The notes below the pieces were generated by a model that saw only the letters and a program-made list of their open reading frames with translations, did no database searches and was not told the origin of the DNA. 37,304 bases of DNA from Nitrospirota bacterium (GTDB lineage Bacteria; Nitrospirota; Thermodesulfovibrionia; Thermodesulfovibrionales; Dissulfurispiraceae). The position numbers and the translations under genes are program-made. Each line of letters opens with the position of its first letter. Position 1 is the first letter of the stretch. Below are positions 8,768-18,643 of the stretch, piece by piece. Location of the stretch: positions 1 to 37,304 of the forward strand of contig JAJYVD010000020.1 in the NCBI GenBank assembly GCA_021792185.1. The letters are read 5' to 3'.

Positions 8768-11101
8768 TCAGTTATCAATATCGCCTTCAGCCTTTTTATC
8801 CGTACTCCCTATCGGTTCATCCGACTTGTTGGGCGATAACAGGTTAGCCAGTTCCTCTAACAGTGATTCCATCTTCGTCTGTTCTATTTGACTCATTTCG
8901 TACTCAATCTTAGAATACCGATAATCTTGACGGTAACGCTCCTCGGCTTTACGCCTAATATTGTAGGCTGTACGACCTCTGATTTCCTGATCCGGCGCAT
9001 CTGCGCGAGAGAGACGATCAGCTATCTGGCGTTTGAGATTCTCAACTGCCTGAGAATTTGCGATGAGTGCAAGAGTTGCAAGCCCGTAGAATGATCGTTC
9101 CAATATTCCCCAACCGGTTTGTTGTCTGCCTCCCTTGAACGCCCACCCCATAAGTAACCCCTGCAACTTCTCAAAGACCTCAAAACACTCTCGTTGATAG
9201 GCATCTATTGCTATTTCAAACAGGGTCTCTGTTAGCTGAAAGCTCTCGACAAAAGCCACTGTCTCTTTGTCATCAGGAATCCATGAAACAGTAGAGATAA
9301 GCCAGAGTGCGTGTTTACGAAGCTCATCTCTGATATGATCGTTGCAGACTGGCGAGTTCGAGAGCGCGAGAAGTATTTGTGTCATACGTGAGATCCAGTG
9401 AATCATGTCAAAGGTAAAATGGGACCGCTTCTCGATAGCCAGCAGAAGCAACTCTTTTTGGGCTTGATACAACCCATCTGCCCAATCCTCTATATGCTGA
9501 ACTGCCGTTCTTGCACCCTCATTCTCTGGATTAGCTTCGACAATTGCATTAGCCAACTCCGTTAACCACGATAGAAGTGATTGCGTGGTCGTACTCGAAT
9601 AGTATGGAGCCAGATATGTGCTGTGAGCGCTCACCAAGGGGGTATCGGGCACTTTTAGAAAGAGCTTCGTAACCATCGTGACATTTTCTTTAAGATGATC
9701 TACTAAGAAGTGAATATCGTGCGCATTAGATCGAATAAGCGCAAATGTCAGCTTTGCAAGTTGCTCTATAGCAGTTAACGTAACTGGGCGATACTTCTCA
9801 TTTGCAACCCCCGTGCAGGCTATTAGTCCAATCTCCTCTGTTAGTGTGGTGATGCTATTTGGTTCATTGCGCTCAAGGAAGAAATGCGCTGATTGCCCCA
9901 TTAATCGAACCCCCTCCATCAGCACGTCAGCCATCTGATGGGGTATTACAGACTTCACAGCCTCCGAAAGATATCCAGCGGCAATAATCGCATGGGTTTT
10001 CGATGCATATCTGTTGGAGTAATCTATTGCGATATAGACTCCTATTAGTTCCGCCAAAGTCTGCAATGATTGTTCGATCTGTTGCTCATCTCCGCGACTG
10101 ACACCGAGCCTTGTATTTTGACGGAGAAGTTCTAGTGTATCATTGATAAACCTGTCAGTGGACAACGGGTTATCTATTACCAGGGGATTGTGGAAAAAGG
10201 TCTGTCCCTTCGCCTCGACATAATTTCTGTTGATAACGACAACTGCCCTCAATGCTGCATCAGAAACTTCATGATCTCCCTGTTCAGCATACCGTCTAGC
10301 GAGCGAAATCGCGTACTGAATTGCCTTCTGTGCTCCAGCAGTCCAATGTGGATTGGCCAGAAAATATGCTGCACGAGATGTGTCAAAAGAAGTACCAGAG
10401 GGATCAGCATCGGTACCAGGAGCAGTATCTGTAGACTGAAACAATGGTGCAGCTCGTTTTGCCCGCCTAACCCATACTCGCATTTCACGGTTAGAATCTT
10501 TAATGACGAGATTCAGTTGCTTCAAAGGATTTATGAGCGCAAGGGCACGGCGATAGGCATATAAAAAAAGCATGAGGATCAGAGATATTCCCCACGCAGA
10601 TCCCAAAATAGCTACTGCGGCCCATGATGTGTCCGAGATGAGAGAGGCGCAGGCTATGGAAATTGCCAGAAGAAATATGCCTGCAAAAGACACTATAATG
10701 CGTATGTCCGTGCTGAGTCTACGGAATAGCCCATGTGGCATACGTTCGACATTCACCTGCATTGCAAACATAACGAGAGAAAAGGCAATGGCTGCTGCAC
10801 CTATCAGCGCACTTCCAATATTAAGAAATAGCGACTGAAGGTCATTGAGCTTATTTTGTTCGGAGAGATGTGGCTCCAACAGGTTCTGGAGGACGGGAGA
10901 AAAATAGGCACTTATGAGTACCAGTAGAGTAATCAATATCCATATAGCAATAGCACTATGCTTGGCTTTCAATATCGAGAAGCGATAACGAGCCCAATAG
11001 AACTGATGCCACCCCAGAGCGAAAGTGCGCGAGACCGCCCCGACTGCTTTTTGATACATCTTTTTAACAGCTCCTACTTTCGCATTGAGTTTTGCTTTCA
11101 T
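8768..11101 (-). CDS. Large DUF2254-like membrane protein (777 aa)
   Basis: Four or more N-terminal membrane segments (about residues 50-68, 95-118, 135-157 and 163-185) include SALIGAAAIAFSLVMFAMQV and the conserved-looking MPHGLFRRLSTDIRIIVSFAG, which resemble DUF2254 membrane proteins. A long, mainly alpha-helical cytosolic part of almost 600 residues follows, ending in a charged tail (TKMESLLEELANLLSPNKSDEP). I see no nuclease, kinase or ATPase motif. At 777 residues it is longer than the common DUF2254 protein (about 400-450), so the C-terminal part may be a separate helical-repeat domain. Function unknown. Confidence 0.65.
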   Translation of the reverse strand: MKAKLNAKVGAVKKMYQKAVGAVSRTFALGWHQFYWARYRFSILKAKHSAIAIWILITLLVLISAYFSPVLQNLLEPHLSEQNKLNDLQSLFLNIGSALIGAAAIAFSLVMFAMQVNVERMPHGLFRRLSTDIRIIVSFAGIFLLAISIACASLISDTSWAAVAILGSAWGISLILMLFLYAYRRALALINPLKQLNLVIKDSNREMRVWVRRAKRAAPLFQSTDTAPGTDADPSGTSFDTSRAAYFLANPHWTAGAQKAIQYAISLARRYAEQGDHEVSDAALRAVVVINRNYVEAKGQTFFHNPLVIDNPLSTDRFINDTLELLRQNTRLGVSRGDEQQIEQSLQTLAELIGVYIAIDYSNRYASKTHAIIAAGYLSEAVKSVIPHQMADVLMEGVRLMGQSAHFFLERNEPNSITTLTEEIGLIACTGVANEKYRPVTLTAIEQLAKLTFALIRSNAHDIHFLVDHLKENVTMVTKLFLKVPDTPLVSAHSTYLAPYYSSTTTQSLLSWLTELANAIVEANPENEGARTAVQHIEDWADGLYQAQKELLLLAIEKRSHFTFDMIHWISRMTQILLALSNSPVCNDHIRDELRKHALWLISTVSWIPDDKETVAFVESFQLTETLFEIAIDAYQRECFEVFEKLQGLLMGWAFKGGRQQTGWGILERSFYGLATLALIANSQAVENLKRQIADRLSRADAPDQEIRGRTAYNIRRKAEERYRQDYRYSKIEYEMSQIEQTKMESLLEELANLLSPNKSDEPIGSTDKKAEGDIDN

Positions 11102-11245: not shown

Positions 11246-11602
11246 TTAATACGCCTTTTTCAACAACAATGAAATATCGTTCAGTTTCTTATCGAGCGTC
11301 CAAAGTGGAATATTACTTAAGACAGATGAAGCCAACAGGTGCATATCGACATAGCCCAATCCCTTCCCCATAAGACGGTACTTTTCGATAAAAGTCATAA
11401 CTTCTTCGTGTTCCGCCTGAACAGCCATTGGAAGGGTTTGTAAAAGAGAAATTATTTCATCCCTGTTTTTGAGATTTCCGCAGGCAAGCTCGCCGATAAT
11501 AAACGGGTGGCAGACCGCAATGCCGTCGTTTAACAAAACATCAAGGCCGATACTACCCTCGCGCAGATGCGCAATCCATACTGATGTGTCGACAAGGACC
11601 AT
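11246..11602 (-). CDS. vapC: VapC-type PIN-domain toxin (118 aa)
   Basis: This is a PIN-domain ribonuclease of about the standard length. The acidic active-site residues are visible: LVDTSVWI at the N-terminus, IGELACGN at about residue 38, YVDMHLLASS at about 91 and TLDKKL near the end. VapC toxins cleave specific tRNAs or rRNA and are held by VapB. It starts one base after the vapB stop codon, with the ATG embedded in the end of that stop region. All catalytic acids are present, so it looks functional. Confidence 0.9.
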   Translation of the reverse strand: MVLVDTSVWIAHLREGSIGLDVLLNDGIAVCHPFIIGELACGNLKNRDEIISLLQTLPMAVQAEHEEVMTFIEKYRLMGKGLGYVDMHLLASSVLSNIPLWTLDKKLNDISLLLKKAY

Positions 11603-11603
11603 A

Positions 11604-11801
11604 TTATGCGCTTGCGGATCTTCTGCGCGGGATTGCTTTCAACTTCCTTTCGGTGCCGCCGAGAATAGCGAGCCTTCTGGCGCTCTCCCTCGCAATCAAA
11701 GATTCAAGTCCGGCCCTGACAAGTGCAGTTTTTTCTTTAACGCCCGTCAGTTTAGCCGCTTTATCAAGTAATTCGTCCTCGATGTTCAATGTAGTTCTCA
11801 T
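11604..11801 (-). CDS. vapB: VapB-type antitoxin (65 aa)
   Basis: I place the start at the ATG at 11799-11801 (MRTTLNIEDELLDKAAKL), which has AGAGGTGA at ideal distance; the upstream in-frame ATGs lie in the operator repeats. It has a ribbon-helix-helix DNA-binding N-terminus, then a basic C-terminal tail (RKLKAIPRRR) that would wrap the toxin. It precedes vapC, the normal order. Three ATATGCATTA-like repeats upstream are the probable autoregulatory operator. Confidence 0.85.
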   Translation of the reverse strand: MRTTLNIEDELLDKAAKLTGVKEKTALVRAGLESLIARESARRLAILGGTERKLKAIPRRRSASA

Positions 11802-11831
11802 GAAGTCACCTCTTTTTAATATGTATCTATC

Positions 11832-11861
11832 ATATGCATTAATATGCATTAATATGTATTA
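11832..11861. promoter_or_regulatory. Probable VapBC operator: three 10-bp direct repeats
   Basis: ATATGCATTA at 11832-11841 and 11842-11851, and ATATGTATTA at 11852-11861, are three contiguous copies of one near-palindromic unit spaced one helical turn apart. They lie 31 bases upstream of the vapB start. Such spacing suits cooperative binding by ribbon-helix-helix dimers. The VapB link is inferred from position. Confidence 0.55.
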
Positions 11862-15881: not shown

Positions 15882-17225
15882 CTAACTCTTTATCTTTTTT
15901 GAGATATATTCAACGGTTTTTTTTAACGTTTCGTCCCTGCCCCTCTTTTCCTCTATCTGCTTGCATGCGTAGATTACGGTTGCGTGATCCTTCCCCCCGA
16001 AACTCCTGCCGATCTCGCTCAATGAAAGCTGCGTAAGCTGTTTAGTAATATACATGGCTATCTGACGGGCGTTCGCCACCTCTTTTGTCCGTTTTTTTGT
16101 CTTAAGTTCCTGCGCCTTCATCCCGAAATATTCGCCGACCGCCTTCTGAATTATATCTACCGTGACCGGCTTTTCCTCATCCGATATCAAATCCTTCAGC
16201 ACATTCCTCGCCATGTTTATGTCTATAGGCATTCCGGTGAGGGATGCGTGCGCCCCGAGTTTTATCAGGCAGCCTTCGAGTTCTCTTACGTTAGATTTCA
16301 CCTTTGTGGCTATGAAATAAGCGACGTCATCGCTTATCGCCATCTTTTCCATATCGGCTTTTTTGTGTATAATGGCAACCTTTGTCTCCACTTCGGGCGG
16401 CTGAATGTCGGCAATAAGCCCCATGCTGAACCTCGACCTCAACCTGTCGGTAATATCGGCTATCTCCATAGGCGACCTGTCGCTCGAAATCACTATCTGC
16501 CGCTGTTTCTCATAAAGCGAGTTGAATGTGTGAAAAAACTCTTCCTGCGTGGTCGTCTTGCCTGCTATAAACTGTATGTCATCTACGAGCAGGGCATCCA
16601 CGTTCCTGTATTTTTCCTTAAACTCTCCCATCTTCTCATGCCTTATTGCTGCGATAACTTCATTTGTAAACTGTTCTGCCGACACATAATGGACTATCCT
16701 GCCTGGATGCTGATCGACAATGGCATTGCCTATGGCGTTTATGATGTGCGTCTTGCCGAGACCGACTCCTCCATAGATGAAAAGCGGATTGTAGGCAAAC
16801 CCGGGGTTTTCTCCTACCCTGATAGCTGCCGCGTGGACAAATTGGTTGGAAGGGCCGACAACGAATGTGTTAAAGGTATATCTCGGGTTAAGGTAAATCC
16901 CCCTGCTCGCAAGCCGTGTTCTCCTCGTTTCGAGTTTAGAATCCAGCTTTTTGAGTGCGGCATCCTCCTTTTCGGCGATCTTATACTTTACATTCACAGT
17001 ATAGCCGAGCAACCCATCCATTACGTCGGAAATAATCGTGGGATAATAGTCCTCTATCCAATCCCTGAAAAATCTGTTCGGGATTTCTAAAATCGCCGCC
17101 TTGTCCTTAAGCTGGATCAATTTTATGGGCTTAAACCAGAGGTCAAAGGTGCTTTCTCCAACCTTCTCGGCGATTTTAGAGAGACTTTTTTGCCATATGT
17201 CTTCTACGCTCAAACCCGCTGCCAT
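15882..17225 (-). CDS. dnaA: Chromosomal replication initiator protein DnaA (447 aa)
   Basis: DnaA binds oriC boxes and melts the origin. Domain I covers about residues 5-80 (IWQKSLSKIAEKVGESTFDLWFKPI). After a short linker comes the AAA+ domain with Walker A GGVGLGKTHI, Walker B ALLVDDIQFI and sensor sequence ITDRLRSRFSMGL. The C-terminal helix-turn-helix has the signature GRSFGGKDHATVIYA, where Asp-His-Ala-Thr-Val replaces the commoner DHTTV. The linker (domain II) is short. GGAGAAG lies about 13 bases upstream of the ATG. The candidate oriC is immediately upstream. Confidence 0.97.
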   Translation of the reverse strand: MAAGLSVEDIWQKSLSKIAEKVGESTFDLWFKPIKLIQLKDKAAILEIPNRFFRDWIEDYYPTIISDVMDGLLGYTVNVKYKIAEKEDAALKKLDSKLETRRTRLASRGIYLNPRYTFNTFVVGPSNQFVHAAAIRVGENPGFAYNPLFIYGGVGLGKTHIINAIGNAIVDQHPGRIVHYVSAEQFTNEVIAAIRHEKMGEFKEKYRNVDALLVDDIQFIAGKTTTQEEFFHTFNSLYEKQRQIVISSDRSPMEIADITDRLRSRFSMGLIADIQPPEVETKVAIIHKKADMEKMAISDDVAYFIATKVKSNVRELEGCLIKLGAHASLTGMPIDINMARNVLKDLISDEEKPVTVDIIQKAVGEYFGMKAQELKTKKRTKEVANARQIAMYITKQLTQLSLSEIGRSFGGKDHATVIYACKQIEEKRGRDETLKKTVEYISKKIKS

Positions 17226-17529
17226 CTTTAATTTTCTTCTCCAAATAACTGGATATTTCTATGCTTATCAACACTTTACTAACAATTGTTAGTAATTTCA
17301 ACTATTTTTACCTGCTCATTATAGCCTATCTGTTAAATCAAGGGCAATAATCCGTTAATTAAAAACTGTAGTTAATTTTCTTAACAAGCCTCCGCTTGCG
17401 AACATAAAACTCCTGCAAAAATATTATTATGCTATTGTTCTGTAAAACAACCTATTATTCCGGTTATTAACAACTAAACAGCCCCTACTATCTGCTACTA
17501 TTTTATATTTATAAAATAAATAATAGTAG
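17226..17529. other. Candidate oriC between dnaA and prfB
   Basis: About 300 A/T-rich bases without genes lie upstream of dnaA. They contain DnaA-box variants TTATCAACA (17265-17273) and TTATTAACA (17464-17472), each one base off TTATNCACA at position 6, and a 20-bp palindrome made of two TTACTAACA halves (17276-17295). At the prfB side the order is: box (17464-17472), GC-rich step GCCCC (17481-17485), the trinucleotide-type run CTACTATCTGCTACTATT (17485-17502), then an all-A/T stretch (17501-17523). This box/GC-rich/DnaA-trio/unwinding order is that of the basal unwinding system described for Bacillus. No consensus TTATCCACA was found, so the call rests on location and order. Confidence 0.65.
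17276..17295. promoter_or_regulatory. Perfect 20-bp palindrome upstream of dnaA
   Basis: TTACTAACAATTGTTAGTAA is its own reverse complement. It lies 51 bases upstream of the dnaA start and can be read as two inverted TTACTAACA sites, which resemble weak DnaA boxes. It is either a dnaA-autoregulation/oriC site or an operator for another repressor. The sequence does not decide. Confidence 0.5.
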
Positions 17530-18643
17530 TTATTTATTTTCCTGTTTTAAAGTCTTAAGATATCCATGAATAAAAACATCTATATCTCCGTTAAGCACTG
17601 CATCAACATTGCCAACTTCTATATTTGTCCTATGGTCTTTAACAAGCCTATAAGGCTGAAGCACATAAGAGCGTATCTGATTGCCCCATGATATCTCTTT
17701 TTTATCGCCTATAATATCTTCAAGCTTCTGTTCCCGCGCCTTTAATGACAGGTCATAAAGTCTTGATTTCAATAATCTCATGGCCACTTCCCTGTTTCTA
17801 TGCTGGGATCTCTCGCTCTGGCATGCGACTATTATACCGGTAGGAATATGGGTTAACCTGACCGCCGAAGAAACCTTATTGACATGCTGGCCTCCTGCAC
17901 CCGATGCCCTGAAGGTATCCATCTTTAAGTCTTCATCCCTTATGTCTATTTTTATATTATCTTCTATTTCAGGATACACGAGGACCGCTGAAAAAGAGGT
18001 GTGTCTTCTTTTATTCGCATCGAAAGGAGATATCCTTACAAGCCTGTGAATGCCTGCCTCAGCCTTTAAATAACCGTAAGCATACGGGCCTTCTACTGTA
18101 AAAGTTGCGCCTTTTATTCCACCCTCTTCTCCCATCTGCATATCTACTATCGCTGTCTTATAGCCTTTATTTTCAGTCCATCGCAGGTACATCCTCATCA
18201 GCATCTGCGCCCAATCCTGGCTCTCGATTCCCCCGGCGCCCGGATGTATGGTAACGATTGCGCTATTCTTATCCACATCCCCGGAAAGAAGGAGTTTTAA
18301 TTCTATGACTTCCAGAGATTTTTTTAATTCATCGGCTTCTTTTTTTATCTCTTCAAAAAATATCTCCCCTTCTTCTTCGTTTAATATGCTTATCGAATCT
18401 TCGAGGTAAAGCACATGACTGAGAACGGTCTCTATAGGCTGCAGGGTCTCTTCTATTTTCGCCTTTTGCTTCTGCAACTGTTTAAGCCTGTCGGGGAATG
18501 CCCATACGTCTTCGGAAGATAAATCTTTTTCTATAGATGCCAGTTCGGACTTGAGCCTGTCTACATCAAAGATAACCTCTTAATGAGAGTGCCTTTTCTT
18601 TTAATTCCGCCATATATTCTTTAAGTTCAGCCTGCAACAACAT
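17530..18643 (-). CDS. prfB: Peptide chain release factor 2, with programmed +1 frameshift (370 aa)
   Basis: RF2 ends translation at UGA and UAA. The product is made from two frames. Codons 1-25 (18643-18569) run from ATG to ...LSLRGYL, ending CTT, followed by an in-frame TGA (18568-18566). A +1 shift at CTT-T continues from GAT (18567) as DVDRLKSELAS... to the stop at 17530. AGAGG just upstream of CTT acts as the internal Shine-Dalgarno. Downstream are the RF2 anticodon-like SPF (VRISPFDANKRRHTSF) and the catalytic GGQ (GAGGQHVNKV). The start has AGGAGGG seven bases upstream. That site overlaps the lnt stop, so the two genes are probably coupled. Confidence 0.95.

Follow-up and report, generated by a model that had tools for sequence, protein, structure and literature searches.

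The analysed stretch of DNA (the window, 37.3 kb) is one whole contig of a 2.65-Mb genome in 89 contigs, and its minus strand carries, in this order, an apolipoprotein N-acyltransferase gene, prfB, dnaA, dnaN and gyrB. The spacer between prfB and dnaA holds a candidate origin of replication. The features are listed below in coordinates of the window.

15882-17225, minus strand: dnaA (447 aa), recognition helix GGKDHATV, with I190, K222 and R264 of B. subtilis DnaA conserved in the alignment
17226-17529, unstranded: candidate oriC, the 304-bp prfB-dnaA spacer, from the dnaA start (17225, minus) to the prfB stop (17530, minus)
17265-17273, plus strand: DnaA box TTATCAACA near the dnaA start, an exact lineage box
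17276-17295, unstranded: palindromic box pair TTACTAACAATTGTTAGTAA, consisting of two TTACTAACA boxes at 17276-17284 and 17287-17295
17318-17347, minus strand: dnaA promoter-like site TTGCCC-18-TATAAT, with TTGCCCTTG and GCTATAATG among the words enriched in relatives
17378-17386, plus strand: possible weak box TTCTTAACA, one mismatch from the lineage box
17464-17472, plus strand: trio-proximal DnaA box TTATTAACA with A at position 6, the top-ranked word in relatives
17472-17480, plus strand: degenerate second tandem box AACTAAACA, where relatives have TGTTTATT-TGTTAATAA on the dnaA strand in a conserved alignment
17481-17485, plus strand: GC cluster GCCCC between boxes and trio, as read in the sequence
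17485-17500, minus strand: DnaA-trio of the dnaA-sense (minus) strand, read 3'-GATGAT-5'; in plus-strand letters CTACTA-TCTG-CTACTA, split by TCTG
17501-17523, unstranded: pure A/T core of 23 bp between both trios, part of the least stable 40 bp
17524-17529, plus strand: mirrored DnaA-trio, TAGTAG on the plus strand, directly after the prfB stop and beyond the A/T core

Other features of the contig concern the neighbouring genes. The start of prfB is the ATG at 18643 (minus strand) and a +1 shift is needed at CTT TGA (18571-18566), which is the classical frameshift of RF2 autoregulation; the N-terminus is missing from the 315-aa prfB ORF of the ORF list (minus strand, region 18566-18643). A VapB antitoxin and PIN-domain gene pair (VapBC-like; 11246-11849, minus strand) is located downstream of gyrB, and a 777-aa membrane-like protein, without a Pfam match at E 0.001, is encoded at 8768-11101 (minus strand). 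A comparison of the prfB-dnaA spacer with Rfam gave no match to a structured RNA.

The preliminary description of this DNA had proposed the spacer as a candidate oriC resembling the basal unwinding system (BUS) of Bacillus, and had suggested a comparison with the corresponding regions of relatives. The set for word counts consisted of the DNA upstream of dnaA from 65 members of the order (Thermodesulfovibrionales, Nitrospirota; window included). In 59 loci of the comparison set (window included), prfB and dnaA are neighbours on one strand, prfB being directly upstream, with a spacer of 228-530 bp, and the layout of the window recurs across the order. In a motif-free word count, the 9-mer TTATTAACA/TGTTAATAA ranked first, being present in 46 of the 65 genomes versus 1.3 in dinucleotide shuffles. 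The other box words TTACTAACA and TTATCAACA were found in 26 and 21 genomes, respectively, and the consensus box TTATCCACA in only 6. Moreover, 164 of the 189 TTA[TC]NNACA words in the spacers of the relatives have A at position 6. The counts thus support the view that this A6 word acts as the DnaA box throughout the order. The earlier suggestion of a lineage-specific box therefore holds as far as the order-wide use is concerned, and fails with respect to uniqueness, as Clostridioides difficile also has A6 boxes. The same description had pointed to two best boxes with A at position 6. The base was correct, although the number was not: the spacer contains four exact lineage boxes, all of them with this A. 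In the whole window there are seven A6 boxes, four of which lie within 208 bp. The palindromic pair at 17276-17295 is the sole site in the genome within three mismatches of TTATTAACAATTGTTAATAA; it lies downstream of the promoter and is probably a site of DnaA autoregulation, a role that the boxes beside the dnaA promoter in general probably have. The word TTATCCACA itself is over-represented in the genome (39 sites versus 7 for the reversed word) and absent from the origin spacer; the scattered sites possibly reflect another use of DnaA.

The preliminary description had also linked the A6 box to the DHATV motif in the helix-turn-helix of DnaA. DHATV is indeed common to nearly all members of the order, and the other sampled Nitrospirota families have DHTT or DHST. 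However, A6 boxes also occur in the families f16 and f17, where DnaA has T at that residue (the DnaA of f16 was checked and reads DHTTV), and in C. difficile the trio-proximal A6 boxes TTATTAACA and TTATCAACA go together with an ordinary DHTTV DnaA. These cases contradict DHATV as the cause of the A6 box, and the proposed link is not supported, although the residue may contribute to the A6 box without explaining it. The Thr435 of the E. coli protein has been reported to confer specificity (Sutton and Kaguni 1997, cited in PMC11511705). The single-strand-binding residue and the arginine finger of DnaA (B. subtilis I190 and R264) are conserved in the alignment, and both have been described as needed for strand separation by B. 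subtilis DnaA (PMC8287927).

The order of box TTATTAACA, GCCCC, CTACTATCTGCTACTATT and A/T tract was described correctly, with every element in its place: CTACTATCTGCTACTATT starts at 17485 and is followed by A and T only up to 17523. The trinucleotides are found on the complementary strand, as had been said, in the form of a minus-strand trio. However, this trio is split by TCTG into two CTACTA pairs, and the inverted TAGTAG beyond the core had been missed. Among the relatives, 52 of 65 genomes carry TAGTAG at a distance of 150-400 bp from dnaA, on its upstream side (9.8 in shuffles; 3 for the reversed word), and a box with at most one mismatch was present on the right flank of the first trio in 86% of genomes versus 20% of shuffles. 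Read on the dnaA strand, the common layout consists, in register, of the A/T core, TAGTAG and further units, a few G/C and the tandem boxes TGTTTATT-TGTTAATAA. As judged by comparison, the putative boxes, the trio and the core, and likewise their arrangement, are conserved throughout the order. A recognisable trio upstream of dnaA was lacking in 12 of 69 loci. Among the genomes of the order in which no TAGTAG trio could be recognised there are L065 and L066 (family f10) and L080, L081 and L085 (genus g15), whose origin may differ or lie elsewhere.

The agreement with the BUS can be made more precise. The GC cluster between box and trio, the A/T-rich DNA beyond it and the orientation are all as the BUS requires. 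Box TTATTAACA, with no mismatch to the lineage box and two to TTATCCACA, passes as the box of at most two mismatches that adjoins the trio. The published program rule (PMC8287927) asks in addition for an unbroken run of three or more NAN trios that begins no farther than 16 bp from a box. In the window, the first trio pair lies 12 nt from TTATTAACA and the run of at least three in-register trios 19 nt, which is 3 nt past the limit because the trio is split by the 4 nt TCTG; a distance of at most 16 nt is reached only from a different word with two mismatches. When at least two CT[AT] units are asked for, the 16-nt rule detects a trio in 49 of 69 relatives versus 14 in the reversed control.

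The second trio-like element faces the first across the core, and its recurrence is confined to a narrow place. CT[AT]CT[AT] occurs within 55 bp next to the anchored first trio in 38 of 56 genomes, versus 9.4 in shuffled sequences (maximum 19 in 300 shuffles), and the three-unit form in 30 of 56 versus 2.2 (maximum 7). With one genome per genus, the respective numbers were 28 of 44 versus 7.6 (maximum 14) and 23 of 44 versus 1.7. All 61 matches fall into the 10-39 bp bins (10, 20 and 30), at most 35 bp from the first trio, and none at 40-160 bp. In most genomes the mirrored element begins no more than about 40 bp past the prfB stop, and in a few just inside prfB. The strict form is absent in 18 of the 56 relatives that have a first trio. 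Among other Nitrospirota lineages, the same mirrored layout is visible in the families f21 and f22 and absent from f16. Two origins of the latter family (L155 and L160) have five uninterrupted TAG units and A6 boxes, and no mirrored trio.

No inverted trio past dnaA was found in any of the eight Firmicutes origins with clear boxes and trios, out of ten outgroup loci in all, which are chromosome pieces filed as plasmids; relatedness ignored, the difference between 38/56 and 0/8 has a Fisher p of 0.0004. Several 'plasmid' records of PLSDB (L227-L235) contain a chromosomal dnaA-oriC-dnaN and are probably chromosome pieces or mislabelled chromosomes. Neither an inverted trio nor a trio on both strands is described in the text available of the literature on the BUS, H. 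pylori, C. difficile, T. maritima and DnaD. The mirrored pair, with one trio per strand, is new here with respect to that literature and the ten outgroup loci.

The main alternative is that of an ordinary BUS, in which the CTACTA/CTTCTT motif on the far side has no trio role and merely forms a pyrimidine-rich edge of the unwinding element that is prone to melting. Indeed, a DnaA box beside the mirrored trio was not found above chance (34% versus 33% in shuffles), the eight Firmicutes origins and the f16 family function without such a motif, and some enrichment is seen for the reversed control word as well (12 versus 3.4). Against this, words in the trio register are far above shuffles of equal dinucleotide content and occur in one spot only, and the reversed three-unit word is not enriched (1 versus 0.4). 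We regard the ordinary BUS as less likely.

It was also considered whether both arms form a hairpin or cruciform, or the terminator of prfB. The arms of the window itself can pair (-6.4 kcal/mol as DNA, z -2.2 and -2.4). However, over the relatives the own arms pair no better than arms swapped between genomes (7.14 versus 7.10 +/- 0.11 of 9), and the left units read CTT in 26 of 69 cases, whereas the right units read AAG in 5 of 103. This usage breaks the pairing and keeps the trio consensus, as both sets of units fit the 5'-YTD-3' given for the complement of the trio (PMC8235120). A search for a prfB terminator at the locus yielded none. The hairpin or cruciform is rejected for want of co-variation between the arms, and structural readings of this kind are improbable.

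With respect to the identity of the region, a cluster of DnaA boxes lies beside a duplex-unstable stretch within 17226-17529, which is one of the criteria for an oriC. The weakest 40-bp duplex of the window is found at 17499-17538 (-34.7 kcal/mol; mean -53.2, sd 4.1; next value -39.3). A cluster of consensus boxes at another locus, named at the outset as an observation that would speak against the proposal, was not found, the 39 TTATCCACA sites being scattered over the genome. The preliminary reading as a BUS-like origin with a DnaA-trio is well supported by the conservation in relatives, the instability of the duplex and the unique box cluster.

The GC skew was taken from closed relatives, the own genome being in 89 contigs. 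In a closed relative of the same family (G007), dnaA is located at base 104, and within the 490 kb examined the A6 boxes are most densely clustered there; the skew in 20 samples was mostly positive in the half after dnaA and mostly negative in the half before. The fine curve is noisy, with a broad minimum that takes in dnaA, and its local minima are found near -96 kb, close to dnaA and at +184 kb. In a second closed genome (G035) the sampled minimum lies near dnaA, but the curve is weak and irregular. The skew is therefore compatible with an origin at dnaA, noisy and not decisive. A further reading, in which the region is no more than a dnaA promoter with boxes for autoregulation and the origin lies elsewhere, agrees with the three boxes between promoter and dnaA and with the ambiguous skew, but is the least probable of all, as the module of trio, box and core is found past the promoter, some 240-300 bp upstream of dnaA, in a layout that autoregulation does not need, and a canonical-box cluster is found nowhere else in the genome. 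On the basis of its sequence, the prfB-dnaA spacer is very probably the chromosomal replication origin. We consider it likely that this origin is opened by the mechanism of DnaA box and DnaA-trio, and the mirrored trio may provide a site on the second strand.

A comparison with known systems puts the locus in context. In the incC/oriC2 BUS of B. subtilis and its relatives, tandem boxes, a short GC spacer, a 3'-GAT-5' trio on one strand and A/T-rich DNA have been described in the same order and orientation (PMC6669920, PMC8287927, PMC10721633). Unlike that system, the present one lies upstream of dnaA beside prfB, has boxes of the form TTAYTAACA and, in this genus, a split trio, in addition to the second, inverted trio past the core. 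The oriC2 of C. difficile likewise has its A6 boxes directly beside the trio (PMC7561715), but differs in its position between dnaA and dnaN and in having no mirrored trio, as well as in its DHTTV DnaA. In the oriC of Thermotoga maritima, with its eTrio, the boxes are likewise lineage-specific, and TAG repeats are bound as a single strand by box-bound DnaA (PMC10316083). There the repeats are on one strand together with a TTATT module, and an inverted copy is not described in the text available of that paper. The DRE of B. subtilis (PMC10201434) is alike in being a sequence that has been proposed to steer helicase loading towards the strand opposite to that of the DnaA-trio; however, the DRE is complementary to the trio and is recognised by DnaD, whereas here a separate inverted trio lies on the other side of the core.

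In B. subtilis, box-bound DnaA is passed onto the trio as a single strand and opens the DNA (PMC6669920, PMC8287927, PMC10721633). By analogy, DnaA on tandem TTATTAACA-type boxes would be handed across the GC spacer onto the trio of the dnaA-sense strand and would from there melt the 23-bp A/T core beside it. After this opening, the mirrored trio could serve as a specific single-stranded site on the second strand, either for DnaA or for the helicase-loading machinery (DciA). Such a site would define where the bubble ends on the far side and may help to place the second helicase.

The loading of two helicases for bidirectional replication at bacterial origins has been stated to be not understood (PMC10721633), and for the second strand in B. 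subtilis DnaD and the DRE have been proposed (PMC10201434). The present genome encodes DciA, and a profile search of it for the DnaD domain (PF07261) gave no match, while the control was positive in B. subtilis and L. lactis. It is therefore unlikely that the second strand is dealt with here as in B. subtilis. We tentatively suggest that origins of the Thermodesulfovibrionales, and of some other Nitrospirota, have one trio for DnaA binding per strand and that each faces its counterpart across the melted core, so that both single strands would be engaged and the two helicases loaded by equivalent steps without a DnaD-like factor. The order-wide shift to the A6 box would also give these origins low scores in consensus-based origin finders. 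Moreover, in a lineage that has DciA and in which DnaD was not detected, the conservation of an inverted trio on the second strand would constitute a concrete and testable alternative to DnaD and the DRE.
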